From Streptomyces sp. JB150 (GTDB lineage Bacteria > Actinomycetota > Actinomycetes > Streptomycetales > Streptomycetaceae): 64,000 nt of DNA. Shown piece after piece: positions 7,656 through 46,010 of this stretch; position 1 is the stretch's first letter; each line of letters begins with the position of its first letter. The translations under genes were made by a program, and so were the position numbers. The notes beneath the pieces are model-generated. The model was not told the DNA's origin and did no database searches. It saw only the letters and a list, made by a program, of their open reading frames with translations. The stretch covers positions 1 to 64,000 of the forward strand of contig NZ_CP049780.1 of the NCBI RefSeq assembly GCF_011193355.1, read 5' to 3'.

Positions 7656-9209
7656 TCAGCCCAGGCCCGGCTCGTCGAGCAGACGCTGCGCGAGCGCCTC
7701 CACGTAGTCGGTGATCGTCACGTCGTGGTCGAGGTAGGGGACCACCTCACGCACCTGCTCGTACAGCCGCCGGGTCGCCGGCGACAGCCCCTGCGTGCCG
7801 CGGATGTCGACCGCCTGGCAGGCGCACAGCAGCTCGAAGGCGACCACGTAGGCGACGTTGTCCAGCACCTCCCGGGCCCGCCGGGCGGCGACGAAACCGA
7901 ACGAGACGATGTCCTGGAAGTCCGCGGTCGAGGTCAGCGACTGGATGGACATCGGCATGGTCTTCGCCCGCGTCTCCGCGGTCAGCGAAGCGGTCATGAA
8001 CTGGCCGCCCATCAGCCCCAGCCGCAGCCCCGGGTTCTCCTGGCACAAGAACGCCGGGAGGCCCTCGCTGTTGCTCTTGTCCAGGTACCGGTCGATGCGC
8101 CGGTTGGACAGGTTCATCAGCGTGGTCAGCGCGATCGCCAGATGGTCCATCGCCATGGCCACGTACTGCCCGTGGAAGTGCCCGTTGTGGAACACCTCGT
8201 TCTCGTCGGGGTCGACCAGCGGATTGTCGTTGGAGGAGTTCAGCTCGTCCTCGACGACCTTCTCGATCGAGGCGAGACTGTCCACGACCGGCCCGAGGAT
8301 CTGCGGGGTGCAGCGGATGGAGTAGGCGTCCTCGATGGACTGCGAACCCGCCTTGGCGGTCTTGCCCATCTCACCCGACAGCAGATGCTCGGTGTCCAGC
8401 TCGTCCACCGCCAGCGTCGAGTCGGCCAGCGTCTCCCACAGGAACCGGGCCACCTCCTGCTGCCCCTTGTGCGGCTTGAGGGCGTGCACCCGCGGATCGA
8501 ACGGCTTGGTCTTGCCGGCCAGCGCCTCCACCGACAGAGCCGACACCAGCAGATACGTCCGCAGCAGCCGCTGGGCCCGCGCCACGTTCAGACTGCCCAG
8601 GCCCACCATGCCGGAGGTGCCGTTGATCAGCGCCAGGCCCTCCTTGAAACTCAGCTCCATCGGCTCGATGCCCACCCGCCGCAGCGCCTCACCACCGGGC
8701 AGCACCTCACCGTCCAGCCGCGCCTTCCACTGGCCGATGCACACCAGGGCGATCGCGGCCAGCGGCCCCAGGTCGCCGCTGGTGCCCAGCGACCCCTTCT
8801 CCGGCACACACGGCACCACACCGGAGTTGCGGACCGCGATCAGCTTGTCCAGGTTCGCCGGCGAGATCGCCGAGTTGCCCCGCGACAGCGACACGATCCG
8901 CGACGTCATGATCGCCCGGACCGTGACATCGTCGAGATGATCACCCACGTTGGTCGCCACGGCGTTCAGGAGGTTCTCCTGCAGCTGCCGCGCCATCGTC
9001 ACCGGCACCAGGTAGTTGACGAACCCGCCCATGCTGGTGTTGACGCCGTAGATGACGCGTTCCTCCGCGACGAACTTCTCCAGCGTTCGGCGCGAGGCCT
9101 GCACCCGCGCGCGCACGGAGTCGTCGATGGCCACCGGATCACCCGAGACCGCCGTCGAGGCGACGTCGTTCAGCCGCACCCGCTGGTTGATGGACAAGGT
9201 GTAAGTCAC
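7656..9209 (-). CDS. MIO-type aromatic amino acid ammonia-lyase (PAL-like)
   Basis: A 517-aa member of the HAL/PAL family. The MIO prosthetic group would form from Thr143-Ser144-Gly145 in GTSGDLGPLA, and Tyr54 in VIYGVNTSMGGF is the catalytic tyrosine. Most relatives have Ala-Ser-Gly. To my knowledge a Thr-Ser-Gly triad and GVNTSMGGF-like loop occur in the EncP/AdmH group of phenylalanine ammonia-lyases and 2,3-aminomutases. The likely reaction is L-Phe to trans-cinnamate, or to beta-phenylalanine if it is a mutase. It starts at GTG with AGGAGC 6 bp upstream. Phenylalanine biosynthesis genes in the same operon strongly support Phe over Tyr or His as substrate. Confidence 0.92.
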   Translation of the reverse strand: MTYTLSINQRVRLNDVASTAVSGDPVAIDDSVRARVQASRRTLEKFVAEERVIYGVNTSMGGFVNYLVPVTMARQLQENLLNAVATNVGDHLDDVTVRAIMTSRIVSLSRGNSAISPANLDKLIAVRNSGVVPCVPEKGSLGTSGDLGPLAAIALVCIGQWKARLDGEVLPGGEALRRVGIEPMELSFKEGLALINGTSGMVGLGSLNVARAQRLLRTYLLVSALSVEALAGKTKPFDPRVHALKPHKGQQEVARFLWETLADSTLAVDELDTEHLLSGEMGKTAKAGSQSIEDAYSIRCTPQILGPVVDSLASIEKVVEDELNSSNDNPLVDPDENEVFHNGHFHGQYVAMAMDHLAIALTTLMNLSNRRIDRYLDKSNSEGLPAFLCQENPGLRLGLMGGQFMTASLTAETRAKTMPMSIQSLTSTADFQDIVSFGFVAARRAREVLDNVAYVVAFELLCACQAVDIRGTQGLSPATRRLYEQVREVVPYLDHDVTITDYVEALAQRLLDEPGLG

Positions 9210-9218
9210 GTAAAGCTC

Positions 9219-10901
9219 CTAAGCGTTGGCGTTCGTAGCGAGTCGTACATCCGATGTCGCCACCGGCCCCGGCACCCCGGACACCGTCGGCACCGCGGGC
9301 GCCGCCGGCGCCGCAGGCGTCGTGGGTGTGGCGGTCGGGGAGGCCAGCTGCCGGGCCAGCACCTCCCGGTCGACCTTGCCGTTCACGGTCAGCGGCAGCT
9401 CCGGCACGACGCGGACCGAACGGGGCACCATGTAGGCGGGCAGCTCCCGCGCACACACCGCCAGCGCCGCCCGCACGTCCAGCCGCGCCTGCCCGCCGTC
9501 CAGGACCACGGCCGCCATCAGCACGTGGTCCCCCGCCCGCGGCACCAGCACCGCCGCGGCCGCCGTCACCGACGGCAGACGGGTCAGCGTGCCCTCGACC
9601 TCACCCAGCTCCACCCGGTTCCCGCGGATCTGCACCTGGTGGTCGCAGCGGCCCACGAACACCAGATCACCCCCCGCGCCCACCCGGGCCAGGTCCCCGG
9701 TGCGCAGCACCTTCTGCCCGTGCCGCGACTCGACCGGGTCGGGCACCAGCACCGCCGCCGTCGCCTCGGGATCGTTCCAGTAACCGGTGAACAGGCACGG
9801 GCTGCGCAGGTAGATCTCCCCGATGCCGCCCGGCTCGGTGACGACCTCACCGCGCTCGTCCACCACCGTCATCTCCGCGCCCGCGTGGGCGTGACCGATC
9901 GACAGCCGCTCCAGCCCGGCCGGCAGCGGATCGGGAACATCCGTGAACGAGGCGGCCATCGACTCCGTCGCCCCGTAACCGTTGACCAGCCGGACACCGG
10001 GCAGCGTCTGCTGCAGCCGGCGCAGCTCCGGCAGCGGGAACTCCTCTCCCGCGAAGACCACCGACCGCAGCCGCCGCAACTCCGCGAGCAGCTGCGGGTC
10101 ATGACGCAGCACCGGACGCCACAGCGAGGGCACACCGTGCACCTGGGTGACCCCGGCATCGCGCAGAAAACCGATCATGCGCCGCGGCGAGCCGAGATCC
10201 TCACGCCGCACCGGCACCAGCGCCGCGCCGGCGGCCAGCGCCACACCGATCCCGAACAGCGCGAAGTCGAACTGCAGCGGCGACGTGCTCGCCACCCGGT
10301 CCCCGGGCCCGGCCAGCCGGTCGTGCAGCATCGCACGCAGGAACGTCACGATCGCCCGGTGGCTCATCACCACCCCCTTGGGCCGGCCCGTCGACCCGGA
10401 CGTGAAGACGATGTACGCGGTGTCGGTGGCCAGCACGGCACGCCGCCGGCGCACCCGGCGCGCCGGCGCACGCTCGACCACCAGACCCGCGGGGCCGAAG
10501 TACGCGCTGCCCTCCACCTCGACCGACTCCCGGCGCGCCAGATGGCCGGCCCGGGCGTGCAGCGCCGGCTCGACCGAACCCACGATCGACACCAGACGGG
10601 CGTTTGGTGTCTGCGGGCTCACCGTCACGAACGGCAGCCCCAGCAGCGAACAGGCGAGCAGCATGGCCACCGCCGGCGCCGAGGTGTCCGCCTCGATCAC
10701 CACACGGTCACCGACATCGAGCCCCAGACCGTTCAGGACGTCCGCGTACTGCTGGGTCAGCACGTCCAGCGCACGGTAGGAGACCTCCGTGAGGACCCCG
10801 TCCTGGTCCGCCTCCACCACCGCCGGCGCATCCGGGGAGACGGCCGCGGGCCCCATGAGCAGCCGGTAGAGGTTGTCCGCCGAAGCAAGCGGCCGTTCCA
10901 T
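9219..10901 (-). CDS. Stand-alone adenylation enzyme (acyl/aminoacyl-AMP ligase)
   Basis: A 560-aa ANL-superfamily enzyme. Core motifs are visible: A3 as YIVFTSGSTGRPKGV near residue 165, A5 as NGYGATES near 310, A7 as TGDLARVG near 405, and the A10 lysine in LPLTVNGKVDRE near 510. A4 reads QFDFALFG, keeping the Asp that in NRPS A-domains pairs with the substrate alpha-amine; cinnamate-type ligases usually lack it, so an amino acid substrate is possible. The last 40 residues are a Pro/Ala-rich tail. GGGAGA precedes the ATG. It is the first gene of the minus-strand operon and probably loads the ACP at 6507-6752. Confidence 0.9.
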   Translation of the reverse strand: MERPLASADNLYRLLMGPAAVSPDAPAVVEADQDGVLTEVSYRALDVLTQQYADVLNGLGLDVGDRVVIEADTSAPAVAMLLACSLLGLPFVTVSPQTPNARLVSIVGSVEPALHARAGHLARRESVEVEGSAYFGPAGLVVERAPARRVRRRRAVLATDTAYIVFTSGSTGRPKGVVMSHRAIVTFLRAMLHDRLAGPGDRVASTSPLQFDFALFGIGVALAAGAALVPVRREDLGSPRRMIGFLRDAGVTQVHGVPSLWRPVLRHDPQLLAELRRLRSVVFAGEEFPLPELRRLQQTLPGVRLVNGYGATESMAASFTDVPDPLPAGLERLSIGHAHAGAEMTVVDERGEVVTEPGGIGEIYLRSPCLFTGYWNDPEATAAVLVPDPVESRHGQKVLRTGDLARVGAGGDLVFVGRCDHQVQIRGNRVELGEVEGTLTRLPSVTAAAAVLVPRAGDHVLMAAVVLDGGQARLDVRAALAVCARELPAYMVPRSVRVVPELPLTVNGKVDREVLARQLASPTATPTTPAAPAAPAVPTVSGVPGPVATSDVRLATNANA

Positions 10902-11839: not shown

Positions 11840-12760
11840 ATGAGCCTGTCCAGGACGGACCGCACAGCACCGGTGCCGGCCCACTCCGCCGGGGTCCGCC
11901 CGATCCTCCTCGACGCCGCGGGCCTCACCCTGTCCGGCCTGCTGGCCCAGCCGCCCGACACCCCGCCCCGCGCGACCGTCGTCGCCGTGCACGGCGGCGG
12001 CATGCGCGCGGGCTACTTCGACGGACAGGCCGACGCCGACCTGTCCCTGCTCACCCTGGGCGCCCGGCTCGGCTACACGGTGCTGGCCCTGGACCGGCCC
12101 GGCTACGGCCACTCCGCCGCACAGGCCCCCGCCGGCCTCACCCTCGACGAGCAGTCCGCCGTACTGTCCGCCGCGCTGGAGGCGTTCGCCGCCCGCCACC
12201 GCGTCGGCCGCGGCTTCCTCCTGCTCGCCCACTCCTACGGCGGCAAACTCGCCCTGACGACCGCCGCACGCACCCCCGGCCTGCTCGCCCTGGACGCCTC
12301 CGGCGTCGGCCACCGCTACGGCATCCGGCCCGACGAACGCCGCCGCCTGCGCCGCCACCTGGAATGGGAACGCAACTGGGGCCCGCTCGGCCTCTACCCG
12401 CCGGGCACCTTCCGCGCGGCCGAGCACCTCATCGCCCCCATCCCCGCCCGCGAGGCCGCCGAAGTACCCCTGTGGCCGGCGATGTTCGACGAACTCGCAC
12501 CCCGCATCGACATCCCGCTGCGCCTGACCTTCGCCGAGCACGAGGCCTGGTGGCAGCACGAGGAAGCCGACCTCGCCGACCTGACCTCCCGCCTGACCAG
12601 GGCACCCCTCGTCCGCGTCGAGCGCCAGCCGGGCGCCGGCCACAACATCAGCCTCGGCCGCGCCGCCCGCCCCTACCACCTGCGCGCACTGGCCTTCTTC
12701 GACGAAGCCCTGCGCACCGCCGGCCACGACCCGGCCGGCACCCCCGCCCCCGCCTGCTGA
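11840..12760 (+). CDS. Alpha/beta hydrolase
   Basis: A 306-aa alpha/beta hydrolase. VVAVHGGGMRAG near residue 50 forms the oxyanion hole, LLAHSYGGKLA near residue 135 holds the nucleophile serine, and GAGHNISLG near residue 275 holds the catalytic histidine. It lacks a signal peptide. Roles in such clusters include off-loading the finished acyl chain from the ACP or hydrolysing an ester; a stand-alone thioesterase role is plausible because no other thioesterase is visible. It follows the SnoaL-like gene by 75 bp on the same strand. Confidence 0.82.
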   Translation: MSLSRTDRTAPVPAHSAGVRPILLDAAGLTLSGLLAQPPDTPPRATVVAVHGGGMRAGYFDGQADADLSLLTLGARLGYTVLALDRPGYGHSAAQAPAGLTLDEQSAVLSAALEAFAARHRVGRGFLLLAHSYGGKLALTTAARTPGLLALDASGVGHRYGIRPDERRRLRRHLEWERNWGPLGLYPPGTFRAAEHLIAPIPAREAAEVPLWPAMFDELAPRIDIPLRLTFAEHEAWWQHEEADLADLTSRLTRAPLVRVERQPGAGHNISLGRAARPYHLRALAFFDEALRTAGHDPAGTPAPAC

Positions 12761-12964
12761 CCGGGCGACGGCCGCCCGGCCCCGCGCACACACCACGGGG
12801 CGCTCCCGGGCCGGCGGTGAACAGCCCGTGATTTTCTCATGCCCCGTGTGTGACCCGTTCGCTGCCCATGCCACCTACCCGCTTCCATACTGGAGTCGCG
12901 AGCGGGGGCCGCGGGGGAGCCGCACATGTCGTCGGCTCCGACAGCCTGAGGAGGTCGGTAGACC

Positions 12965-13594
12965 GTGAAGTCCCCCACCGAGAATGCCATCCCGCGCCTG
13001 CACCACCTGTGGTCGCTGCGCGAGGACACGGTGGTCGGATGGGAAGAGGAAGGCCGGGCCCTGGTGCTCAGCGGACCCCTGGGCACCGAACGGGTCGAGG
13101 ACCCCGCGCCCGAGGTCGCCGAGATGCTGCGCCGCATGGAACTCGGCCCCGTGCTGCTCACCAACCTGGTCGAGCCCGGCGACACCCGCCCCGGCGGGCA
13201 CAGCACCTACGCGGTGGTGCTGTCGGTGCTGCGCGGCATCTCCCACGTGGTGATCAGGACACTCTCCCTGGAGGACCTCAAGGGGCCGGTGCTGTCGGTG
13301 GTGCCGGTCGACCGCACCGCCCGCTTCTCCCTCGTCCACCTGCCGGCCCAGCGCCGGGTACGGCTGCGGCCCACCGTGACGATCACCGTGCGCGGGGACG
13401 TGCTGGTCATCCAGTCCCGCGTCATGGACCACCGGGTGGAGATCCACCGCCCCGAGGCGATGTGGGTGGTGTCCCTGCTGGCCTGGCCGACCACCCCCGA
13501 CGCCATCGTCGACATGCTGCCGCTGCCCGCCGAGCTGACCCGGCAGATACTGGGCTACCTGGCCGGCGCCGGGATGACGGTGACCGCCAGCTGA
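12965..13594 (+). CDS. SagB-type N-terminal region only (no FMN reductase domain)
   Basis: This 209-aa protein resembles the N-terminal half of actinobacterial SagB/ThcOx-type azoline dehydrogenases: LWSLREDTVVGW at the start, HVVIRTLS and LLSVVP-like LSVVPVDRTARFSL in the centre, and a second winged-helix-like unit ending PTTPDAIVDMLPLP and YLAGAGMTV. It stops where the nitroreductase (FMN) domain normally begins, and only 43 bp of convergent intergenic DNA follow, so this is not a frameshifted full enzyme. It could be a scaffold or leader-binding partner for the cyclodehydratase at 15.7-18.0 kb. The match rests on pattern memory, not alignment. Confidence 0.6.
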   Translation: MKSPTENAIPRLHHLWSLREDTVVGWEEEGRALVLSGPLGTERVEDPAPEVAEMLRRMELGPVLLTNLVEPGDTRPGGHSTYAVVLSVLRGISHVVIRTLSLEDLKGPVLSVVPVDRTARFSLVHLPAQRRVRLRPTVTITVRGDVLVIQSRVMDHRVEIHRPEAMWVVSLLAWPTTPDAIVDMLPLPAELTRQILGYLAGAGMTVTAS

Positions 13595-13637
13595 CCACCC
13601 CGCACCCGCCCCCAGGGGCCGGGGCCGGCCGGGCCGC

Positions 13638-14246
13638 TCACAGCAGCCAGCCCGACTCGCGCGCGATACGGATCGCGTCCACCCGGTTGCGGGCGTTGAG
13701 CTTGGTCACGGCCGTGGTGAGGTAGTTGCGCACCGTGCCCGCGGACAGCCGCAGCTGACCGGCGATCTCCTGCGGCTCGGTGCCCTGCGCGGCCAGCTGC
13801 AGCACCTCCGTCTCCCTGCTGGTCAGCGGGCTCTCCCCGCCGCCCCAGGCCGCCAGCGCCAGCTGCGGGTCGACCACCCGCTGCCCGGCCGCGACCCGGC
13901 GCACCGCCTGGGCCAGGTCACTGGGCGGCGCGTCCTTGAGCAGGAAACCCGCCACCCGCGCCGACATGGCCCGGCGCAGCGTGCCCGGACGGCCCAGACT
14001 GGTCAGGATCAGCGTGCGGCACTCCGGCACCCGCTCGTGCAGCAGCTCGGCCGCGCTCAGCCCGTCCAGACCCGGCAGGTCGATGTCGATGATGGCGACG
14101 TCCGGCCGGTGCTCACGGGCCGCGTTCAGGATCTGGTCCCCCCGCTCCAGCTCGGCGACCACCTTCAGGTCGTCCTCCAGATTGAGCAGAGCCACCAGCG
14201 CGCCCCGAACCATGTGCATGTCCTCGGCCAGGATGATCCGTATCAT
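13638..14246 (-). CDS. NarL/FixJ-family response regulator
   Basis: A 202-aa response regulator. The receiver domain begins IRIILAEDMHMVRGAL and has the phospho-acceptor Asp in VAIIDIDLPGLDG, with the conserved Lys in FLLKDAPP. The C-terminal LuxR-type helix-turn-helix (about 140-200) reads LTSRETEVLQLAAQG and LSAGTVRNYLTTAVTKLNA. The ATG at 14246 is chosen because GGGGGAGGG precedes it. It lies directly downstream of the sensor kinase and is its probable partner. It resembles DesR-like regulators; its target promoters cannot be read from the sequence. Confidence 0.92.
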   Translation of the reverse strand: MIRIILAEDMHMVRGALVALLNLEDDLKVVAELERGDQILNAAREHRPDVAIIDIDLPGLDGLSAAELLHERVPECRTLILTSLGRPGTLRRAMSARVAGFLLKDAPPSDLAQAVRRVAAGQRVVDPQLALAAWGGGESPLTSRETEVLQLAAQGTEPQEIAGQLRLSAGTVRNYLTTAVTKLNARNRVDAIRIARESGWLL

Positions 14247-14311
14247 CGTCGCCCTCCCCCTACACCGCAAATCCTTCGATCCTACCCAACCCCCGCCCGC
14301 CGGGCGGGCTT

Positions 14312-15625
14312 TCACACCGCGATGCCGCTCGGCCCGAACGGCTCTTCCTCGCCGGCGAATCCGCCCGCCCGCCCGCCCGCGTCATGCGGCCCGGCCGCCC
14401 GCACCGGCGCCTGGGCGGTCAGCCGGAAGACGTCCGAACCGCCCTCGCCCGCCAGGCGGCGCACGGTCAGCCGGCCGCCGATGCCCTCCAGCCGCTGCTG
14501 GAGGTTGCCCAGACCGGTGCCGCTGTGCGGCGACGGCACCTGATGCCCCTGCACCAGACCGTCGTTGACGATCCGCAGGCGCACCAGGTCGCCCTCGACC
14601 CGGGCGGAGATGTGGCAGTACGAGGCCTTGGAGTGCCGCAGCAGATTGGTGACCCCCTCGCGCAGCACCGTGGCCAGCACCGTGGACGTCGCCGTGCCCA
14701 GGTGCTCGACGGCGTCGTCACACTCGACACTGACCTCGACGTCGGCGGCGGCCAGCACCGACTCGGCGGAGGTCAGCTCCGAACCCAGCGCCATCTCCCG
14801 GTAGCCGCTGGCGACCCGGCGCACATCGGCCAGCGCCTGGCGGGAGATGCCGAGCACCTCGTCGACCTCCTCGCGGGCCCGCATCGGGTTGGCCGGGATC
14901 AGCCGGTGGATCAGCTCGTTCTTCAGCGTGATCGCCGAAAGGCTGTACCCGAGCAGATCGTGCAGGTCCCTGGCGAAACGTAACTGCTCGTTGCTGACGG
15001 CCAGCCGGGCCAGATCCGCGCGGGCGCGGTGCAGCTGCTCCACCAGACTGGTCAGCCGGCTCAGCCCGTACACCACCAGACCGGTCAGCGCCGTGGTCTG
15101 GCCCATGTACACGATGTCGACCACGCTGCGGTCGTCCAGGATGCCCGGCACCAGCAGGCTCAGCGTCGTCAGCCCGTACAGCGTCCAGCCCCACCGGGCC
15201 GGCAGCAGCAGGAGCACGGACCCGGCGAAGAACCCGGCCATCGCCCCCCAGGACACCCCGAACCACATCAACGGCAGGTACGACAAGGCCCCTTGGCCGG
15301 CCAGCGTCAGCACCTTGGTGCGCATCCGCGCCCCGGCCATGGCGGGGGAGGAGTGCACCAGCTGCAGCAGGAACACCAGCACCAGACACGTCAGCGCCAG
15401 CGCCAGCCCGGACGCGGCCAGCCGCTGGGTGAGGATGTTGAGGAAGGTGATCGCCAGGTAGCAGAACAGCGCGGCCACCAGAATGCCCCGGGCGGTTCTG
15501 GTGGCCGCGCTGCGGTGGTCCTGCGATGGACCGGAACGCGACAGAAAACTCCAGGGATCGGGACGGTCCACCTCGTACGAGCCCCCTCGTGTCCGAATCT
15601 GGTTCGAAACCATACCGGACTTCAT
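14312..15625 (-). CDS. DesK-like sensor histidine kinase with a TTA codon
   Basis: A 437-aa membrane kinase. Five or six hydrophobic segments span residues 45-195. A HisKA_3 dimerisation domain follows with phospho-acceptor His222 in RFARDLHDLLGYSLS, and a C-terminal ATPase domain with EGVTNLLRHS (N box) and GTGLGNLQQRL (G box). The leucine at codon 215 (14981-14983 on plus) is encoded by TTA, so translation should depend on the bldA tRNA. An alternative ATG lies at 15613. It follows the YcaO gene on the same strand and likely reports on envelope or lipid state, perhaps the product itself. Confidence 0.9.
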   Translation of the reverse strand: MKSGMVSNQIRTRGGSYEVDRPDPWSFLSRSGPSQDHRSAATRTARGILVAALFCYLAITFLNILTQRLAASGLALALTCLVLVFLLQLVHSSPAMAGARMRTKVLTLAGQGALSYLPLMWFGVSWGAMAGFFAGSVLLLLPARWGWTLYGLTTLSLLVPGILDDRSVVDIVYMGQTTALTGLVVYGLSRLTSLVEQLHRARADLARLAVSNEQLRFARDLHDLLGYSLSAITLKNELIHRLIPANPMRAREEVDEVLGISRQALADVRRVASGYREMALGSELTSAESVLAAADVEVSVECDDAVEHLGTATSTVLATVLREGVTNLLRHSKASYCHISARVEGDLVRLRIVNDGLVQGHQVPSPHSGTGLGNLQQRLEGIGGRLTVRRLAGEGGSDVFRLTAQAPVRAAGPHDAGGRAGGFAGEEEPFGPSGIAV

Positions 15626-15697
15626 GCCGGACAGAGCGCTGCTGCGGCACGGCGCACACGGGCACGGAGGACGTGCAACTGGCCGGAAACGAACGCT

Positions 15698-17995
15698 TCA
15701 CACGAACAGCGGGATCGGGTTGAGCTGCTCGTAGGGAGTGGGGCGGGAGAGCCGTCCGAGGTCGACCGGCACATCGAACAGCCGGCCCGGCGCGTACCTG
15801 GCCCAGAAGTGCCGCAGACCCGGGGCCATCACCTTGACCACCGGCATTCCCACCTCCGGCCGGGTCTGGTCCAGGACGAGAAGCTCCATGCCCTTGCCGC
15901 CGACGAGTTGCGTGATCGCTTCGACGTCGTCCAGCAGGTCGGTGCGCGGAGCATAGTCCCAACTGCCGGGCGTCCGCGGCCGCAAGGCCGGATCCGGCAG
16001 CAGATACGGCTGGTTGACGACGGTCGCCTGCCGCCACCAGCGCACCGGCAGCGCGTCGGTGATGCCGTAGCCGCCCCCGGGCAGGCCGTCGCCGACCGCC
16101 GGCAGCAGCTGCCCCATCTCCGTCAGCGCCCGGCGCAGGGCGACCGCCGGGTCGAAATGGGCACCGAAACCGAAGATGATGTCCTCGCCGGCCGCGCCCT
16201 CGCGCCGCGACAGCGCCACCACCGCGGGGATACCGAGGTCGCTGGTCAGATCCAGCGCCCACACCCGGCGCCCCAGCCGCCCGTACCCCTCCTGCAGCCG
16301 GCCGATGTACGGCTCGCCGAACGACTCCAGGTCGATCGCCGGCTGCCGGGTGCGGTTGTACCACCACAGGGCGACCGCATCGCGCTCCACCAGCTCCAGG
16401 AACCCCTGCACCAGGGCGTCCTCCGGGCTGCTGCCCGCCGCGTTGCCGTTGGAGTCGGCGTAAGGCGCGCGCGAACCGGCCCCGTCGCGGGGGAAGTACA
16501 GCATCGAGGTGGGCAGCAGCCGGTGGCACCGCCCGGTCAGCGACCACACCGGCGTCCACTCCACCGGCCGCTGCTCGTCGAAGGGCTCGGGCACATGATG
16601 GAAGGGCGAGCCGGAGCGGTTCCACAGCGCGCGCTCACGGAACTGCCGCTGCGCGTACAGCTGGCAGGCGTGCGGATGGATCGCCTGCTCGCCCAGCCCG
16701 GCCAGGGTGTCCACCACGACCGGCTCGTCGCCGTGCCGGGTGCCGCTGTAGCGTTCCACCGCCTCGCACAGCGCGCTGGTGCGGGCCTCGGCGTCGGTCA
16801 GGCCCTTGCCGCCGCTGAGCGCGCGCAGCCCCGCCGGGCCCCGCTCACGCATCGCCAGGTTGCGCCCCGACACATAGGTCGTGGCGAACTCCGGTGCGCC
16901 CGGCGCCGGTTCGAGTGCGGAGACGATCCCGGTGACCGGGCTCACCAGATGCCCGTAGCGCTCGAGGACCTGGTCGGGGGTCAGCGCCCGGTGCCCGCCG
17001 CCGCCGGGGGCGGCCTTGGGCCGCGACACGGGCACGAACGGCGCGCGCACCCGCCGGGCCGTCAGCTGCGGGTCACCGCAGGAAGGGCACTGGGGGACCC
17101 GCGGCACCGCGTGGACACGGGTGCGCAGGGTGAGGGTGTCGACCGTGCGGACGGCACCCTGATCGGCGTAGCGCAGGCCGGCCAGCCACTTGGCGGCCTC
17201 CAGCACCGCGCTCTGCGCGGCCATGACCCGGCCCGCGGACAGCGAGGCGATCGGCCGGCCCAGCGGCCCCTCCAGGGCCAGCGCCTGCCGCAGCGGCCCC
17301 TCGTAGCTGCGGTGCTGCTCCACCCGCAGGGCCAGGCACGTCCAGCAGGGGCCCTCGCCGGGCCGGAAGAACGGCCCGATCCACGGCTCGTAGCCGCACA
17401 GGCGGGCGAGCAGCCACGGCCGGCCCGCCGCCCGGTGCTCGGCGTCGACCCGTTCCAGCTCGGGGGAGAGGTAGTCGTCGCACAGCACCAGGGTGAGGTC
17501 GGTGTCGCTGTCGGCCACGGTCAGGCCCGAGTCGGCGCCGGCGGCGAGCACCGCGGCGGCGTCGACGCCGGCCAGCGGCAGGATCCGCAGCCGTGAGCAG
17601 GCCAGGCCGGCCGCGGCCCGCGCACCGTCCAGGCCGGCCAGGTCCCAGTACGCCTCGGCGACCGGGTCACCGGCCGCGGCCGAGGGGGCCGGGGTGCCGA
17701 AGCGCAGCAGCCCGGCCTCGCTCAGGAGCCGCAGCCCGCCCTGCGCCTCCTCGGCGGTCAGGGCGGGCGCGGCGGCCTGAAGGATCTGGGTGAGGGACCG
17801 GGTGCCGTCGAGCAGCGGGACCAGCACCTCGGCCAGCGCGCCGTGCAGGGCGGTCACGCCCTGCCGCGAGACCAGGTAGGTCGCCTCGCCGGGGACCGTC
17901 GCCGGACGCAGGTGGTGCCGGAACCCGACGAGGGCCTCCCCGTCCTGGGGGGCACCCGGCCCCGGTCTGTTGGAAGGCGGCAGTTCTGTCGTCAT
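15698..17995 (-). CDS. Fused azoline cyclodehydratase (E1-like plus YcaO)
   Basis: A 765-aa TOMM-type protein. The N-terminal part (1-330) resembles the E1-like/ocin-ThiF partner, with a leader-binding winged-helix-like region (about 20-110) and four cysteines in CWTC (about 216) and CPSC (about 302) for structural zinc. The YcaO domain follows, with GGKGLTDAEARTSALCEAVE near 395, ELVERDAVALWW near 535 and the proline-rich C-terminus LNPIPLFV, as expected for the catalytic tail. Such enzymes use ATP to cyclise Cys/Ser/Thr to azolines. Its ATG overlaps the stop of the 93-aa peptide gene (ATGA). A longer in-frame reading upstream is rejected because that peptide frame has the better start. Confidence 0.9.
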   Translation of the reverse strand: MTTELPPSNRPGPGAPQDGEALVGFRHHLRPATVPGEATYLVSRQGVTALHGALAEVLVPLLDGTRSLTQILQAAAPALTAEEAQGGLRLLSEAGLLRFGTPAPSAAAGDPVAEAYWDLAGLDGARAAAGLACSRLRILPLAGVDAAAVLAAGADSGLTVADSDTDLTLVLCDDYLSPELERVDAEHRAAGRPWLLARLCGYEPWIGPFFRPGEGPCWTCLALRVEQHRSYEGPLRQALALEGPLGRPIASLSAGRVMAAQSAVLEAAKWLAGLRYADQGAVRTVDTLTLRTRVHAVPRVPQCPSCGDPQLTARRVRAPFVPVSRPKAAPGGGGHRALTPDQVLERYGHLVSPVTGIVSALEPAPGAPEFATTYVSGRNLAMRERGPAGLRALSGGKGLTDAEARTSALCEAVERYSGTRHGDEPVVVDTLAGLGEQAIHPHACQLYAQRQFRERALWNRSGSPFHHVPEPFDEQRPVEWTPVWSLTGRCHRLLPTSMLYFPRDGAGSRAPYADSNGNAAGSSPEDALVQGFLELVERDAVALWWYNRTRQPAIDLESFGEPYIGRLQEGYGRLGRRVWALDLTSDLGIPAVVALSRREGAAGEDIIFGFGAHFDPAVALRRALTEMGQLLPAVGDGLPGGGYGITDALPVRWWRQATVVNQPYLLPDPALRPRTPGSWDYAPRTDLLDDVEAITQLVGGKGMELLVLDQTRPEVGMPVVKVMAPGLRHFWARYAPGRLFDVPVDLGRLSRPTPYEQLNPIPLFV

Positions 17996-18273
17996 ATCCA
18001 CGACCCCGCGACGGAGTCGCTCTCGACGGCCACCGGCGCCGCGGTCGGGGCGCCGTAGGTGTAGGTCAGAGCGACGTTCGCGGGGATCGGGCCGGCACAC
18101 AGGGTGAACGCGGGAGCGTCGGCCGCCGCGGGAGCCGCCTCGGCGCAGAAGGTGAAGCGCACCGCCGGACCGGCGCGGTGGCCGAGGTGCTCGACCACGA
18201 GGAGCGGACGTGCGGGAACTGCCTCGGTGATGCGCGCCGGGCCGGTGTCCGTGCTGACACTCGCATGGCTCAT
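17992..18273 (-). CDS. Candidate RiPP precursor peptide (93 aa)
   Basis: A small gene translationally coupled (ATGA) to the YcaO gene. The N-terminal 40 residues, with a hydrophobic LLVVEHLGH stretch, could be a leader. The C-terminal half holds a repeated unit TFCA (41-44) and TLCA (57-60), giving Cys43 and Cys59 each preceded by Thr-hydrophobic, then LTYTYGAPT, and ends SDSVAGSWI. Cys, Thr and Ser here are possible cyclisation sites. GAGG lies about 12 bp before the ATG. I do not recognise the family, and it could instead be a small accessory protein. The position directly before a cyclodehydratase makes substrate the leading guess. Confidence 0.6.
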   Translation of the reverse strand: MSHASVSTDTGPARITEAVPARPLLVVEHLGHRAGPAVRFTFCAEAAPAAADAPAFTLCAGPIPANVALTYTYGAPTAAPVAVESDSVAGSWI

Positions 18274-18386
18274 CGGAGTAGATCCTCACTGTCGTGGTGG
18301 GCTGGTGCTCCAATGACCGGAATTCTTCGACGCGCGCCCACCTCGCGGACAGTGTCGGGTTCATCGCCGACGGGTGAAGTTCTCAC

Positions 18387-29072: not shown

Positions 29073-29211
29073 GAACCGCCGGCCACGGCTTCGTGCCCGC
29101 ACGGCCCCGCGACCATGAATCGCTCACGTCCCCGAGAGGACCACGACACCCGCACGGGCGGGAGCAGCGCACTGTCCGCGCGGCCGGCCCGCGTGGGAGG
29201 TTCGGGGTCCG

Positions 29212-30045
29212 ATGACAGAGACACAAGGGGGCCGAATGCGAATCTCTGTTCTGGGATCGTTGGACGCCGAGCTGAAGGGCGTCTCGATCCTGCCCACAGC
29301 GGCGAAGCCGCGGCAGATCATGGCACTGCTCGCGATCTACGCCAACCAGGTGCTGCCGGTGTCCGCGCTGATGGAGGAGATCTGGGGCGACGCACCGCCG
29401 CGCAGCGCGCTCACCACCCTGCAGACCTACATCCTCCAGCTGCGGCGCTGCATGGAGAAGGCACTGGACGGGGAGCCCGGCGGCTCCAAGGAACTGCTGC
29501 TGACCCGGCACGGGGGATACCTCCTGCAGACCACGCCCGGCAGCATCGACGCGCACGAGCACGACCGGCTGTCCAACCTCGGCCAGCGCGCCCTGGACCG
29601 CGGCGAGCACCGCGAGGCCGCCGAACTGTTCCGCGACGCCCTCGGCCTGTGGCGCGGCCCGGCCCTCGTCGACGTACGCACCGGCCCGCTCCTGGAGATC
29701 GAGGCGATGCGGCTGGAGGAGAGCCGGCTGGGGGTGCTGGAGCGCCGTATCGACGTCGAGCTGCGCCTGGGCCGCCACGGCGAACTGCTCACCGAACTGA
29801 CCGCGCTCGCCGCCCGGCACCCGCTGCACGAGGGCCTGCACGCCCAGTGCATGGTCGCCTTCTACCGGGCGGGACGGCCCTCCGCGGCACTCGACGTCTT
29901 CCAGAACCTGCGCACCCGGCTCGTCGAAGAGCTGGGCATCGAGCCCTCACAGCGCCTGCAGCACCTGCAGCGGGCCGTGCTCGCGAGCGACCCGGCGCTG
30001 GACGTCGACACCGGCAGCGGGCGGATGCTCGACCGCTTCGCCTGA
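29212..30045 (+). CDS. SARP-family transcriptional activator
   Basis: A 277-aa pathway-specific regulator. The N-terminal OmpR-type winged helix (about 10-100) includes RISVLGSLDAE, PRQIMALLAIYANQVLP and ALTTLQTYILQLRR. A BTAD domain (about 110-255) includes FRDALGLWRGPALVDV and FYRAGRPSAALDVFQNLR. An alternative ATG at 29236 with AGGGGGCC upstream begins RISVLG and may be the true start. SARPs bind 11-bp-phased direct repeats, which occur at several promoters in this window. It is the probable direct activator of the cluster, together with the larger SARP at 46.3-48.3 kb. Confidence 0.93.
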   Translation: MTETQGGRMRISVLGSLDAELKGVSILPTAAKPRQIMALLAIYANQVLPVSALMEEIWGDAPPRSALTTLQTYILQLRRCMEKALDGEPGGSKELLLTRHGGYLLQTTPGSIDAHEHDRLSNLGQRALDRGEHREAAELFRDALGLWRGPALVDVRTGPLLEIEAMRLEESRLGVLERRIDVELRLGRHGELLTELTALAARHPLHEGLHAQCMVAFYRAGRPSAALDVFQNLRTRLVEELGIEPSQRLQHLQRAVLASDPALDVDTGSGRMLDRFA

Positions 30046-35949: not shown

Positions 35950-37065
35950 TCAGGCCGGCAGCGGCGCCTGCCAGGTCAGCGACAGCCCGGTGTACACGTA
36001 CCGGCTGGCCTCGATGCCGAGCAGCACGATCCGGTCGCCGGGCCCGATCCGCCCCGACGTCCAGCCCGCGTCCAGCGACAGCGGCACCGCGGCCGAACCG
36101 GTCGCCCCCACCTCGGCCAGGTTCTCCACGATCCGCCCGTCGAGCGTCTCGATGTCCTCCTGCGACAGCCCGGCGGAGGCGAACTCGTCGGCGAAGTACT
36201 CCGCGTTGCCCTCCGGCAGCACGATCGCGTCGAACTCCCCGAGCGCCCGGCCGTCCTTGCGGGCCATCTCCCTGATCGCCCGGACGAACACCTGCGGACC
36301 GAACGTGGAGGTGCCGGGCACGTCGATCTTCATCTGGATCAGCTGGCGCCGCCGCAGCTGCTCCGCCTGCGGCACATCCGTACCGCCCCCGATGATCTCC
36401 ATACCGGGCTTGCGCAGCCCGCCCACACACGCGTTGACGAAAGCGAACCCGCCCCCCGCATCGCCCGCACCGCCGGAGCCGCCGCCCGCGGGCTCCGCCC
36501 GCATCACCACGGCCCCCGCACCGTCCCCGAACGTGTACAGCATCAGCCGGTCCCGCATCCGCACCCGCGCCGGGTCCTTGCCCAGAAAGTGCGGCGCCAG
36601 CACCGGCGACCCGGCCTCGCTGCCCACCACCAGGGCGGTACGCGCCGTCCCGTCGGCCAGCTGCCGCCGCGCCAGGTCCAGTGCCTGCACCCAGCCCGCG
36701 CACGCCCCGCGGATCTCGACCGCGGCAACGCTCTCCAGACCCAGGTAATGCTGCAGCGTGGTGGCCACGTTGGGCAGCGTGTACTCCGGCGTCGCCGTGC
36801 ACACCACGATCAGGTCCAGCTCACCGGGCTCCACACCGGCCCGCTCCAGCGCCTGTCGGGAGGCACGCTCGGCCATCCGGCTGTTGTTGATGCGGTGCTC
36901 ACCCGTGACCGGGTCGATCATCCAGTACCGGGTCTTGACCTGGATGCCCTCCAGCACATCGTCCGGCAGCGGCCCGACGAACTTCTCCAGCGTGGCGTTG
37001 TCCAGCGGCTCACCGGGCACGTACGCACCGGTCGAAAGGATCTTCACGTCATAGGCGGTGGTCAT
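35950..37065 (-). CDS. Divergent KAS III-like enzyme
   Basis: A 371-aa FabH-fold protein. Cys122 in [13 protein letters not shown] is retained, but the histidine motif (PHQAN in FabH) reads LPEGNAEYF, putting Glu285 at the His position, and the Asn motif (GNTSAAS) reads GATGSAA, with Ala321. Without His and Asn, normal decarboxylative condensation is unlikely. It may act as an acyltransferase between carriers, or as an esterifying KS III. A Gly-rich loop (about 194-206) is inserted. The ATG at 37065 is preferred over GTG 37074 because GGAG lies upstream. It starts 6 bp from the fused KS gene's stop. Confidence 0.85.
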
Positions 37066-37070
37066 CGGCC

Positions 37071-39428
37071 TCACTCCGTTACGGGCACAGGGACAGGGGA
37101 CAGCACCAGCGAGGTGTGCGTGCCGCCCAGGGACGAGCTGTTCACCAGGACCGGGCGCAGGTCCCCGCCCGCCCGCCAGGCACCGACCGCGAGCACCGCC
37201 GCCAGCTGGGCACCCGCACCGGCCGGCTCGCCGAGCACCCGCTTGGGAGCCTCGACGCGCACCTCGCCCGCACCGAACACCCGCGCCACGGCGGCCAGTT
37301 CGGGACGGTCGGCGGCAGCCAGACCCGCCGCGCTCGCCCAGACCGCCGCCACCTGCCGCGGCCGCAGCCCGGCAGCGCGCAGCGCCCCGCGCATCGCCCG
37401 CTCCACGCCCTCACCCGCCGCATCCCAGCGGCCGATGCCGCACGCGTCCGACGCGGTCGCATGCCCCAGCACCACGGCGTGGACCGGCGCGCCGCGCCGC
37501 TCGGCGCTCGACCGCCGCTCCAGCAGCAGCGCGATGCCCGCCTCCGCGAGCGTGTAGCGGCGCCCGGACGCCGAACCGAACAGCGGGATACTTTCGTAGG
37601 CGGCCAGCGTGGCGGCGGAGAACGCCTCGACCGCCGGCACCAGCACCCGCTCCACGCGCCCGGCACGCAGCATGTCGTAGGCCACCGACAGGGCGGCCGC
37701 ACCGGCCGCGTGCCCCGACGTCAGCGTCGACGTCGGCCCCTTCGTGCCCAGAGCCATGGCCACATGACCGGCCGCACCGTTGTACACGGTGTTCGTGAAC
37801 ACCGCCGGGTTCGCTTCCTGCACGCCCTCGCGCAGCACCGGCACGGTGAACCGCTCACCGCTCTCCATCGGCCCGATCGCGGTGCCGAGCACCACACCGG
37901 TCGCGGCGACGGCCGCCGCGTCCCTGTCCGCCCCCGCGGCGTCCAGGGCGGCCCGGCACGAGGCGATGGCGAGCTGGGACACCTTGTCCATGCGCCGCCG
38001 CTCCCGGGGCGTGCCCGCCACCGAACGGTCGAACTCCACCCGCGCCACGCGCAAGTTGTTCTCCGGCACACCCTGCCGGCGCCCCGCCGCGTACGCCTCC
38101 CACAGCGCCTCGGGCCCCTCACCGGCCGAGGTGATCACCCCCAGCCCGGTCACCACGACATCGTCCGGGCCGGCGGCCGGCGGCGGCGCACCCCGCCCGC
38201 CCGGCCGGGCGAAGGCGATGGTGGCGTTGGCGCCGGCGAACCCGAAGTTGTTGGACAGCGCCGTCTCCAGCACCATCGGACGGCCCGTCCCCGCCACCGG
38301 GTCCAGACCGCACTGCGGGTCCGCCCCGGTGAAGGACGCCGTCGGCGGCGCCACCTGGTCGCGCAGGGCCAGCGCCGTGACGATCCCCTCCACCGCCCCG
38401 GCCGCGCCCAGCAGATGACCGATCATCGACTTGGTGCTGGACAGCGCGATCTTCTCGGCCGCCGCACCCAGCGCCGCGCGCACGGCGTTGCTCTCCGCCG
38501 AGTCGTTCTTCTGCGTGCCCGTACCGTGCCCGTTGACGTACCGGATGTCGTCCGCGACCAGCCCCGAGGAGTCAAGGGCCGCCCGGATCGCCCGCGCCGC
38601 GCCCTCACCCTCGGGGTGCGGCGCGGTGGGGTGGTGGCCGTCGGCGGACAGGCCGTAACCCAGCACCTCGGCGACGACCGGGGCGCCGGTGCGCTCGGCC
38701 ACCCGCCGCGACAAAAGCACCAGCATCCCGCTGCCCTCACCCAGGGTCAGACCCGAACGGTCCCTGGAATAGGGAGCCGCCGGCTGCGGGGAGAGCGACC
38801 ACAGACTGCTGAACCCGGCGAACGCCGACTCGGTGAACGCGTCGCTGCCGCCGACGAGCATCGCGTCGGCCGCACCCGAGCGGATCACCTCCAGGGCGTG
38901 GGCGAGCGCGTGCGCGCTGGCGGCACACGCCGTGTTCACACTGAACACCGGCCCCTTGAGGCCGAACGCCGCCGACAGCGCCTCCGCGCCCGCCTGCGGC
39001 GGCACGAACGTGTAGCGGCGCCAGTCGGGACTGCGGCCCTCGTGCACCTCCCGCAGAGCCAGCTCGGCACTGCGCCAGCCGCCGTGGCAGGTGCCGTAGG
39101 CGACCCCCCACCGCTCGGCCGGGATGTCGGCGCCGATCCGCAGCCCCGAACCGGCCATGGCCTCCTCGGCGGCGGCCAGCGCGAAGTCGATGGAGAAGTC
39201 ACGGCTGCCGCCCGGCGCGGCGTACGCGTACCCGGGCCGGGGCGCCTCGGCGACCTCACCGCCCAGGGTGGTCTGGTAGTGGTCCATGGACAGGCGGCGC
39301 ACGGGCGCGATCGCCACCCGCCCGGCGCGCACCCCCTCCCACAGGGCCTCGGCCGAGGCGCCGTGCGGGGTGATCGCCCCCACCGCGGCGATCACCACAC
39401 CGGCCCCCTGGCTGCGAACGTCACTCAT
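37071..39428 (-). CDS. Ketosynthase fused to CLF-like second ketosynthase
   Basis: A 785-aa didomain protein. The first KS (1-415) has a complete active site: Cys in NTACAASAHALAHALE near 167, His in NGHGTGTQKND, and His in IGHLLGAAGA. The second (425-780) starts VVVTGLGVITSAG but has SGHAAGAAAL in place of the Cys motif and AVWASAAG in place of the first His motif, so it is a non-catalytic CLF-like domain. KS and CLF are normally separate chains. With the separate KS/CLF pair at 39.5-42.1 kb the cluster has two condensing units. GGAAGC precedes the ATG. Confidence 0.92.
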   Translation of the reverse strand: MSDVRSQGAGVVIAAVGAITPHGASAEALWEGVRAGRVAIAPVRRLSMDHYQTTLGGEVAEAPRPGYAYAAPGGSRDFSIDFALAAAEEAMAGSGLRIGADIPAERWGVAYGTCHGGWRSAELALREVHEGRSPDWRRYTFVPPQAGAEALSAAFGLKGPVFSVNTACAASAHALAHALEVIRSGAADAMLVGGSDAFTESAFAGFSSLWSLSPQPAAPYSRDRSGLTLGEGSGMLVLLSRRVAERTGAPVVAEVLGYGLSADGHHPTAPHPEGEGAARAIRAALDSSGLVADDIRYVNGHGTGTQKNDSAESNAVRAALGAAAEKIALSSTKSMIGHLLGAAGAVEGIVTALALRDQVAPPTASFTGADPQCGLDPVAGTGRPMVLETALSNNFGFAGANATIAFARPGGRGAPPPAAGPDDVVVTGLGVITSAGEGPEALWEAYAAGRRQGVPENNLRVARVEFDRSVAGTPRERRRMDKVSQLAIASCRAALDAAGADRDAAAVAATGVVLGTAIGPMESGERFTVPVLREGVQEANPAVFTNTVYNGAAGHVAMALGTKGPTSTLTSGHAAGAAALSVAYDMLRAGRVERVLVPAVEAFSAATLAAYESIPLFGSASGRRYTLAEAGIALLLERRSSAERRGAPVHAVVLGHATASDACGIGRWDAAGEGVERAMRGALRAAGLRPRQVAAVWASAAGLAAADRPELAAVARVFGAGEVRVEAPKRVLGEPAGAGAQLAAVLAVGAWRAGGDLRPVLVNSSSLGGTHTSLVLSPVPVPVTE

Positions 39429-39467
39429 GCGTCTGCTTCCTTCTGTTCGACAGGGCCCCTCGGCCGC

Positions 39468-45945: not shown

Positions 45946-46010
45946 GACGGTCTCACTCCTTCCTGCCCTCTCGCTTCAAGTGGCTTCGCCCATGACTCTC
46001 CGGCACCCCC

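Follow-up and report, generated by a model that had tools for sequence, protein, structure and literature searches.

What is a small modified peptide doing inside a polyketide cluster? The first-pass annotation of the window (the whole 64-kb stretch of DNA analysed here) recognised RiPP genes among type II polyketide genes and suggested that the peptide might be joined to the polyketide. The RiPP genes are real and are part of the cluster, but the hybrid product is poorly favoured by what follows. The small peptide looks less like a part of the cluster's product than like a component of its on-switch. With modest confidence, we read the genes as a regulatory module that is situated in the cluster and amplifies itself: a peptide signal would be read by a histidine kinase and response regulator, and a SARP would switch on the beta-phenylalanine-primed polyketide genes.

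The peptide genes and their polyketide surroundings

The RiPP genes and the polyketide genes around them are as follows:

7656-9209, minus strand: phenylalanine aminomutase (D-beta-Phe forming), starter-unit supply (TIGR04475, 890.3 vs 800 bits)
9219-10901, minus strand: adenylating enzyme near beta-aminoacyl-ACP synthetases (7dq5, E 2e-184)
12965-13594, plus strand: SagB-type N-terminal domain protein (the stub), 209 aa, with an RRE-like peptide-binding fold and without the flavin dehydrogenase domain
15698-18001, minus strand: E1-like/YcaO fused cyclodehydratase, 767 aa, from profile matches
17992-18273, minus strand: precursor peptide, 93 aa; leader with a PLLVVE motif, core units FTFCAEA, FTLCAGP and LTYTYGA, C-terminal tail ...AVESDSVAGSWI
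35950-42067, minus strand: type II PKS genes (KS-III-like, fused KS/CLF-like of 785 aa, CLF, KS)

The module lies, as first described, between starter-unit genes and sugar genes: the D-beta-Phe aminomutase and the beta-aminoacyl-ACP synthetase, the two enzymes that a beta-Phe-primed polyketide requires, are on one side, and RmlB, RmlA and other sugar genes are on the other. The ligase match suggests a starter with a free amine. An alpha/beta hydrolase (11840-12760) with weak, lipase-like PDB matches was considered as a peptide processor and rejected: among the loci probed it was found near the beta-Phe cluster only, and because of that confinement it is more likely a polyketide gene.

The cyclodehydratase and its precursor bear out the original description. 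Both domains of the fusion score above their profile cut-offs (E1-like: TIGR03882, 153.7 bits against 36.9; YcaO: TIGR03604, 257.4 bits against 219.25), and the protein is intact, with two CxxC pairs and the SALCEAVER and ERD motifs all there. In three other loci (L004, L005 and L008) YcaO is split into several pieces by frameshifts, real or assembly-derived. The start of YcaO overlaps the stop of the precursor by 10 nt, and the precursor, with the two T-x-C-A units noted before (FTFCAEA and FTLCAGP), has 24 homologues at E <= 1e-3. Since these share a leader (MSHAS...ARITEA.PARPLLVVE) and each carry one to three Cys-bearing core units, the precursor is not a chance open reading frame. An ATP-dependent YcaO cyclodehydratase with an E1-like partner, and an adjoining precursor with a conserved leader and repeated FTxCA units, are what a TOMM-type pathway requires. 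A search of genome contigs with a single precursor sequence gave no match, and one with the alignment as query gave three loci.

A leader motif fitted after inspection of the precursors, L[VTFDSL][IV][EQD], occurs in 24 of 25 (0.74 in shuffles); the exception is L012, and L057, L069 and L089 stand outside the count. Downstream of the motif is a short hydrophobic stretch, mostly Cys-containing. Single-Cys cores are common in other modules, and the precursor of L057, read separately, has the leader motif and a core without any Cys (LFTITGAG), so Cys is not universal among precursors.

The stub is where the first-pass annotation placed it, and its alignment covers only residues 2-201 of the 458 in ThcOx, including the RRE-like winged-helix part. 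The flavin nitroreductase-like catalytic domain that defines a SagB-type peptide dehydrogenase is absent: TIGR03605 has no match in the stub, PF00881 (the nitroreductase family) has none in the 64-kb window, and the sole TIGR03605 (SagB-family) match of the whole genome is below cut-off, at 7.26 Mb, beside another YcaO. The FMN dehydrogenase that TOMM biosynthesis needs for azoles, not azolines, is therefore missing here, and the window lineage has lost the dehydrogenase domain. Without that domain oxidation to azoles is unlikely in this lineage, and the word "azole" in the earlier description should be taken as putative. The stub is not a pseudogene, given that stand-alone forms recur at 41-75% identity. 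A further search returned many stub-length relatives, in a set restricted to proteins of 0.55-1.75 times the query length, in which full-length SagB could not appear.

The same genes could instead make a second, co-regulated product: a linear azoline peptide in its own right, such as an antimicrobial, that is an output and not a signal, with the kinase and regulator also switching the neighbouring cluster through the SARP. The intact cyclodehydratase and the variable number of core units fit such a product. So do relatives (L067, L068, L070 and L071) in which a full SagB dehydrogenase adjoins YcaO, as in azole-peptide pathways (all four tested exceed the TIGR03605 cut-off). Envelope stress or the polyketide could be what the kinase senses. 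Against it, the window lineage is without the dehydrogenase domain, cores with one Cys or none offer few residues from which to make a classical multi-azole antibiotic, and transporter, immunity and peptidase genes do not recur beside the module (see below). We consider this second product rather unlikely.

A kinase, a regulator and a common operator

Between YcaO and the stub are two regulatory genes that were overlooked at first, and the window also holds a SARP gene and three operator sites:

13638-14246, minus strand: NarL/LuxR-type response regulator of 202 aa, its start picked from orthologues (the open frame extends to 14315)
14312-15625, minus strand: membrane sensor histidine kinase (HisKA_3) with a hydrophobic N-terminal half and an intact phosphoacceptor box; the true start may be inside the ORF
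29212-30045, plus strand: SARP-type pathway activator, 277 aa, the proposed link from the module to the polyketide genes
18349-18386, minus strand: operator GTGAGAACTTCAC-N9-ATGAACCCGACACTGT, 113 nt ahead of the precursor start, with palindromes paired at 22-bp spacing
12828-12865, plus strand: weaker operator upstream of the stub, with palindrome GTGATTTTCTCAT at 12828-12840
29115-29127, no strand: operator palindrome ATGAATCGCTCAC, 97 nt ahead of the SARP start

The palindrome RTGA-N5-TCAY thus occurs at the promoters of the precursor operon, the stub and the SARP. Multiple comparisons mark it as a shared operator. First, a matrix trained on the precursor promoters of 18 loci, none orthologous to the window's cluster, ranked these same three promoters at the top of the whole window (precursor 46.8, stub 13.0, SARP 11.7; next separate place 5.4). 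Second, the 13-mer palindrome occurs seven times in the window against 1.34 expected, with none of 100 shuffles reaching as many, and three of the seven are the precursor, stub and SARP promoters. Third, every one of 25 loci has the operator upstream of its precursor, with agreement at 19-25 of the 25 positions of a consensus built from these same loci (taking the best match in the roughly 260 nt ahead of the gene). Fourth, sites are about 130-fold denser in target promoters than elsewhere (64 in 16,112 bp against 24 in 801,484 bp, 34 loci), or about 96-fold denser when the set is cut to 16 loci (32 in 8,130 bp against 16 in 389,087 bp), where many loci are related, so that counts are not independent, and the promoter windows were chosen after the motif was known.

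The SARP site recurs as well. All 17 loci with a best SARP at least 47% identical to two query SARPs (those of the window and L014) have it, and in six of these (L013, L066, L067, L068, L069 and L072) the promoter that carries it also serves a divergent module gene. No site was found at less similar SARPs in module loci (0 of 5), and no SARP with the operator lies within the stretch read of L054, L055 or L012. A stub and SARP operator without its regulator seemed to occur in G134, G071 and G250 and was ruled out: each of their contigs also carries, at a distance of 27-29 kb, a response regulator of 74-75% identity along with YcaO, kinase and precursor. The predicted wiring, in which a common operator links the module and the SARP, is well supported. 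We infer that the response regulator is the binder; the SARP may own the operator instead, although SARPs in clusters without the regulator's module have no operator (0 of 6 at SARPs of PKS relatives).

In the self-amplifying module that we favour, the regulator would bind RTGA-N5-TCAY, at the precursor promoter as the 22-bp-spaced pair, and turn on precursor-YcaO-kinase-regulator, the RRE-like stub and the SARP, which would in turn activate the beta-phenylalanine-primed type II polyketide genes. The E1-like/YcaO fusion would recognise the LV[IV]E-type leader and, as family knowledge suggests, convert core Cys (perhaps Thr) into azolines. The matured short hydrophobic peptide or peptides, and so probably an azoline-bearing signal, would be sensed by the membrane kinase, closing a positive feedback loop. 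The kinase's sensor half diverges only moderately more than its catalytic half (49% vs 57% with L011, 36% vs 56% with L013), which is not the hypervariability that strongly specific pheromone pairs would predict. Pairwise distances correlate strongly (YcaO-kinase 0.92, YcaO-regulator 0.89, kinase-regulator 0.86; none of 2000 permutations as high) over 20 of the 23 loci entered (L007, L009 and L073 were dropped, the gene caller not returning all three genes), a co-divergence that plain common descent would also give.

Distribution of the module and the fate of the peptide

Across 21 contexts the recurring genes are the response regulator (21), the kinase (21), YcaO (19), stub or SagB (16) and the SARP (13), with YcaO, kinase and regulator together in 19. 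Because loci were picked by stub or YcaO matches, only the kinase, regulator and SARP counts are free of bias, and the stub count is a lower bound because the gene caller missed the stub in L014. L004-L010, L059-L061, L069, L073, L088 and L089 were left out of the survey as orthologous to, or parts of, others, and some records bear two labels (G224 is L004/L005, G166 is L010 and G074 is L013). L014 (24.6 kb) and L064 (20 kb) have kinase, regulator, stub and SARP but no YcaO in view. No exporter, leader peptidase, transporter or immunity gene recurs in the 21 contexts (mostly 20-40 kb each). Two weak matches in the genus (G347 and G185), with no module gene in the 20 kb around each, were taken as chance; G250 was a weak match too, yet has a real module.

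The module belongs to the window's polyketide cluster. Of 392 genomes of the genus, four, counting the window's own, have the window's CLF at >=84% identity, and an MSHAS-type precursor is in the same four. The order RmlB-precursor-YcaO-kinase-regulator-stub-hydrolase/SnoaL-ligase-aminomutase is kept across two genera of Streptomycetaceae and on four linear plasmids, of which L009 and L010 are nearly identical, with extra genes inserted between stub and hydrolase/SnoaL on plasmid L007. This recurring order and co-occurrence mean that the module is no chance neighbour of the PKS. They also fit a hybrid, a glycosylated polyketide-azoline peptide in which a covalent bond would link the matured peptide to the polyketide, for instance at the beta-amino group of the starter beta-phenylalanine (given the free amine predicted above). 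Weighed against these links, YcaO-kinase-regulator with stub or SagB also recurs in varied neighbourhoods without the window's PKS, the very outcome that the first-pass annotation had named as counting against a hybrid. Four of five related KS/CLF genomes (57-59% CLF identity) have no module in the stretch read (G237 over 40 kb, G101 and G074 over 60 kb, G261 and G123 over 20 kb; the sister PKS genomes G251 and G284 are outside the five), and in G123 it is on another contig. No joining enzyme recurs: the next families after the module genes are KS (6 of 21) and an adenylating enzyme (5 of 21), while the constant partners are kinase, regulator and SARP. Core number varies from one to three against a largely colinear set of PKS genes. 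Every locus seen within the window's exact PKS lineage has the cassette, and a lineage-specific hybrid therefore keeps some probability, but we judge a joined product very unlikely; the common operator and the kinase/regulator pair indicate regulation instead.

Regulation need not involve a secreted signal. The modified peptide might stay in the cell and bind the RRE-like stub or another regulator, tuning the kinase and regulator or the SARP, which would suit a stub that retains its peptide-binding fold under the module's operator, and a module with no recurring exporter. Since the kinase is membrane-embedded and the stub is found in only 16 of the 21 contexts, such an intracellular switch seems very improbable.

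The module that we prefer to read as a signalling circuit occurs in many unrelated Streptomyces neighbourhoods. A broader proposal, for which we see the case as nearly evenly balanced, is a family of YcaO-modified azoline peptide pheromones in Streptomyces and relatives: a transplantable precursor-cyclodehydratase-kinase-regulator-RRE-stub-SARP circuit timing many unrelated biosynthetic clusters. No description of the module was found in the open-licence literature (preprints and most subscription journals were outside that scope).

Significance and comparison with known systems

In culture many Streptomyces clusters stay silent, and few of their waking signals have been identified; gamma-butyrolactone-type small molecules are the best known. 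With a peptide-encoded switch specific to each cluster and an operator legible in the DNA, both signal and regulon could be predicted from sequence, and if each cluster had its own peptide, synthetic modified cores could wake silent clusters. Such a switch would also account for azole-peptide genes inside polyketide clusters, which genome mining may take for hybrid products.

The module resembles TOMM biosynthesis in its E1-like leader-binding domain fused to a SagD-family YcaO, its small Cys/Thr precursor directly upstream and the SagB relatives of sister modules. It differs in the missing dehydrogenase domain of the window lineage, the lack of a recurrent exporter or peptidase, the constant kinase and regulator partners and the operator in common with the SARP. 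The stub corresponds to the N-terminal region of ThcOx/SagB-type dehydrogenases, RRE-like winged-helix part included, but without the flavin domain and with its own promoter carrying the module's operator. The D-beta-Phe aminomutase and the close ligase recall beta-amino-acid-primed polyketide pathways (7dq5-type beta-aminoacyl-ACP synthetases), of which hitachimycin is a product, although here a type II KS/CLF system replaces the modular type I PKS. Goadvionins and lipolanthines, which are polyketide/lipid-RiPP hybrids, also come from RiPP and polyketide genes within one cluster; here the RiPP class is different, no joining enzyme is tied to the module and the module has many other neighbourhoods.

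A parallel to the proposed circuit is ComQXPA and agr, the peptide quorum sensing of Firmicutes, and in particular ComX/ComQ/ComP/ComA of Bacillus, with an azoline-modified peptide in place of ComX. The linked set that such systems require (peptide precursor, modifying enzyme, membrane kinase and response regulator) is found here, along with a predicted autoregulated promoter. The differences are that the modifying enzyme is a YcaO cyclodehydratase, that peptide sensing is a predicted step, and that the target would be a SARP and its biosynthetic cluster in an actinomycete.

Gene content of the module and its polyketide surroundings

The module consists of a precursor gene, an E1/YcaO cyclodehydratase, a histidine kinase (HK), a response regulator (RR), a SagB-like stub (a SagB-type N-terminal domain without the flavin dehydrogenase domain; relatives can carry the fuller SagB) and a SARP activator. 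The first-pass annotation had listed the precursor, YcaO and stub, all of which are present, and had overlooked the HK and RR.

Module genes and KS/CLF set in the window
17992-18273, minus strand: precursor, first in the minus-strand series
15698-18001, minus strand: E1/YcaO cyclodehydratase, after the precursor; above the cut-off of both curated TOMM models
14312-15625, minus strand: histidine kinase, after YcaO
13638-14246, minus strand: response regulator, after the histidine kinase
12965-13594, plus strand: SagB-like stub, facing the minus-strand series
35950-42067: type II KS/CLF set

The YcaO start overlaps the precursor stop by 10 nt, and five compared loci (L004, L006, L007, L009 and L073) show the same offset. 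The protein has retained its expected motifs, both the CxxC pairs and those of the nucleotide site. The JB150 genome has a second YcaO near the other chromosome end (G000:C1:7258023-7259084), followed at 7259405 by a weak SagB-like match.

On one flank of the module (7656-10901) lie genes for a D-beta-phenylalanine aminomutase and for a very close match to beta-aminoacyl-ACP synthetases of solved structure. They make beta-phenylalanine, amine included, the probable starter, which refines the earlier description "phenyl-primed"; the free amine may later be protected, acylated or drawn into a lactam. The aminomutase and synthetase are combined with the type II KS/CLF set in one cluster, where a single 785-aa protein (37071-39428), whose residues 11-406 form a full KS stretch and residues 421-749 a second, weaker one resembling KS/CLF, adjoins separate KS and CLF genes. 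The opposite flank holds RmlB, RmlA, a transporter, a glycosyltransferase, sugar genes and the SARP.

The RmlB-to-aminomutase block occurs twice in S. diastatochromogenes and is likewise conserved in Streptacidiphilus pinicola and on four linear plasmids, of which two are nearly identical; in L007 other genes have been inserted between the stub and the hydrolase/SnoaL genes. YcaO reads in several pieces in both S. diastatochromogenes copies (L004, 10252-12695; L005, 10252-12535) and in the NBC_00008 plasmid (L008, 2720-5009), as if frameshifted by mutation or assembly error. The two S. diastatochromogenes copies comprise the whole block and lie close to either end of the chromosome contig, as would fit terminal inverted repeats. 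Further copies are on linear plasmids, the window begins at base 1 of its contig, and the cluster as a whole appears mobile and associated with telomeres.

Recurrence of the module among differing neighbours

When the genus was searched with the stub, 51 of 295 genomes had a match, weak matches counted. Twenty stretches were read around the better matches. In 16 of them YcaO, HK and RR accompany a stub or SagB; L064 has the stub, HK and RR; and L059-L061 have stub and SARP, their YcaO, HK and RR being on the same contig at a distance of 27-29 kb. These last modules are split (L087/L059, L088/L060, L089/L061), with precursor-YcaO-HK-RR at one end, stub-SARP at the other and operators at both, the L060 SARP having a site and its stub lacking one, as if each bracketed one cluster. 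Neighbours differ widely: halogenase, adenylation and KS genes (L011), KS/ACP with a VlmB-like protein (L012), type II PKS with PabB (L013) and, elsewhere, AMP-binding enzymes, P450, ATP-grasp, GMC oxidoreductase, ornithine-cyclodeaminase-like proteins, pyruvate:ferredoxin oxidoreductase, KS-III, carboxyltransferase and an EryCIII-like glycosyltransferase. When 21 contexts were compared all against all, RR (21), HK (21), YcaO (19), stub/SagB (16) and SARP (13) recurred most, followed by KS (6) and an adenylating enzyme (5). Divergence in YcaO, HK and RR runs strongly in parallel (distance correlations 0.86-0.92), as expected of one unit and also of plain common descent. Two modules show extra genes: in the NBC_00335 plasmid (L013, 20321-24574) the module directly adjoins another YcaO, accompanied by a TfuA-like protein and a separate RR and kinase, and L072 (10508-12718) has tandem kinase genes after YcaO-SagB.

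The reverse comparison used five genomes with a CLF at 57-59% identity. The module was not found around the CLF in four (40 kb in G237, 60 kb in G101, 20 kb each in G261 and G123); the fifth, G074, which is the L013 plasmid, has it with a very different precursor. CLFs at least 84% identical to the window's occur in 4 of 392 genus genomes, the window's own included, and the identical four have an MSHAS-type precursor. These comparisons separate the module from the PKS and speak against the proposed tie between RiPP genes and PKS: the module sits amid differing neighbours, and four of five related CLF regions showed none in the 20-60 kb read. A covalent polyketide-peptide hybrid, as first proposed, is unlikely, with a small chance left for it in the window lineage.

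The precursors form a family. Twenty-four homologues share a leader with PLLVVE, behind which come between one and three F[TSC][FLY]CA-like units, and most have a VEGD..AGAWI-like tail; in more distant modules the ORF directly upstream of YcaO has an LV[IV]E-type motif and another short core (for example SICIVS, TICVVA, FTVCSR or LCFCLE). The pattern L[VTFDSL][IV][EQD] matches 24 of 25 precursors (0.74 expected in shuffled sequences), a descriptive figure, the pattern having been picked after inspection. The L057 precursor carries the leader motif, and its Cys-free core has Thr only.

A predicted operator common to the precursor, stub and SARP promoters

A 38-bp element close to RTGARAWSTTCAY-N9-RTGANNNNRRCACTGT lies upstream of the precursor in 25 of 25 loci, matching 19-25 of 25 fixed positions. 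In the cleanest test, a matrix was built from 18 precursor promoters, orthologues of the window's cluster being excluded, and used to scan the 64-kb window on both strands: the top three places were the precursor (46.8), stub (13.0) and SARP (11.7) promoters, and the next separate place scored 5.4 (two further rows are opposite-strand readings of the precursor and stub promoters). A matrix from all loci except the window gave 51.9, 8.6 and 7.3. The palindromic half, RTGA-N5-TCAY, is found at seven places in the window, where 1.34 would be expected and none of 100 shuffles gave more than 5; three of the seven are 113 nt before the precursor, 137 before the stub and 97 before the SARP. The others are at 9838, 37846, 40321 (inside coding sequence) and 45944, where ATGACGGTCTCAC (45944-45956) overlaps the start of an acyl-CoA carboxylase (carboxyltransferase) gene and may be chance or an additional target.

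Across 34 loci, target promoters contain 64 sites in their 16,112 bp, against 24 in 801,484 bp elsewhere. For a reduced set of 16 loci, in which the beta-Phe cluster has a single representative, the corresponding figures are 32 in 8,130 bp and 16 in 389,087 bp; the loci are partly related, so these counts are not independent draws. In the 34-locus count, sites precede YcaO/precursor in 25 of 28, SARP in 17 of 24 and stub in 19 of 28. The three YcaO misses have a site farther upstream than the counting window permitted. By our own reading, six of nine stub misses are SagB genes within the YcaO operon and two (L014, L064) lie directly behind an operator-bearing SARP; L060 has no such explanation. 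The SARP site is retained in L007, L074 and L092. SARPs of at least 47% identity have the site in 17 of 17 loci, in six of which the promoter is common to a divergent module gene; it is absent from more distant SARPs in module loci (0/5) and from SARPs in module-free PKS relatives (0/6).

A scan of 32 loci found the DNA-reading segment of the RR, GTVRNYL...KL.ARNR.DA, in 27. Among the remaining five, the RR that belongs to L059-L061 is encoded in L087-L089, where the pattern does match, and the RR present in L014 and in L066 does not fit it. So nearly invariant a segment suits the nearly invariant operator, and we infer that the RR is its binder.

A proposed switch and its known parts

Comparison shows a recurring multi-gene module with a common predicted operator that marks the SARP too. 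We propose that the leader would be recognised and an azoline formed on the precursor, that the kinase would sense this peptide, that the RR would bind the operator and that the SARP would activate the polyketide genes. That the module is regulatory and works via the SARP is very probable; with the peptide as signal included, the proposal is somewhat favoured. Against the signalling step count the moderate variability of the kinase sensor and the recurrence of no exporter or peptidase across the 21 contexts. The main rival, that the peptide is a co-regulated second product, we consider rather improbable. In the open-licence literature, outside which most subscription papers lie, we found no description of a transplantable switch uniting a TOMM cyclodehydratase, HK/RR, SARP and a defined operator; its parts are all of known kinds, namely a TOMM cyclodehydratase, a HisKA_3/NarL pair and a SARP.
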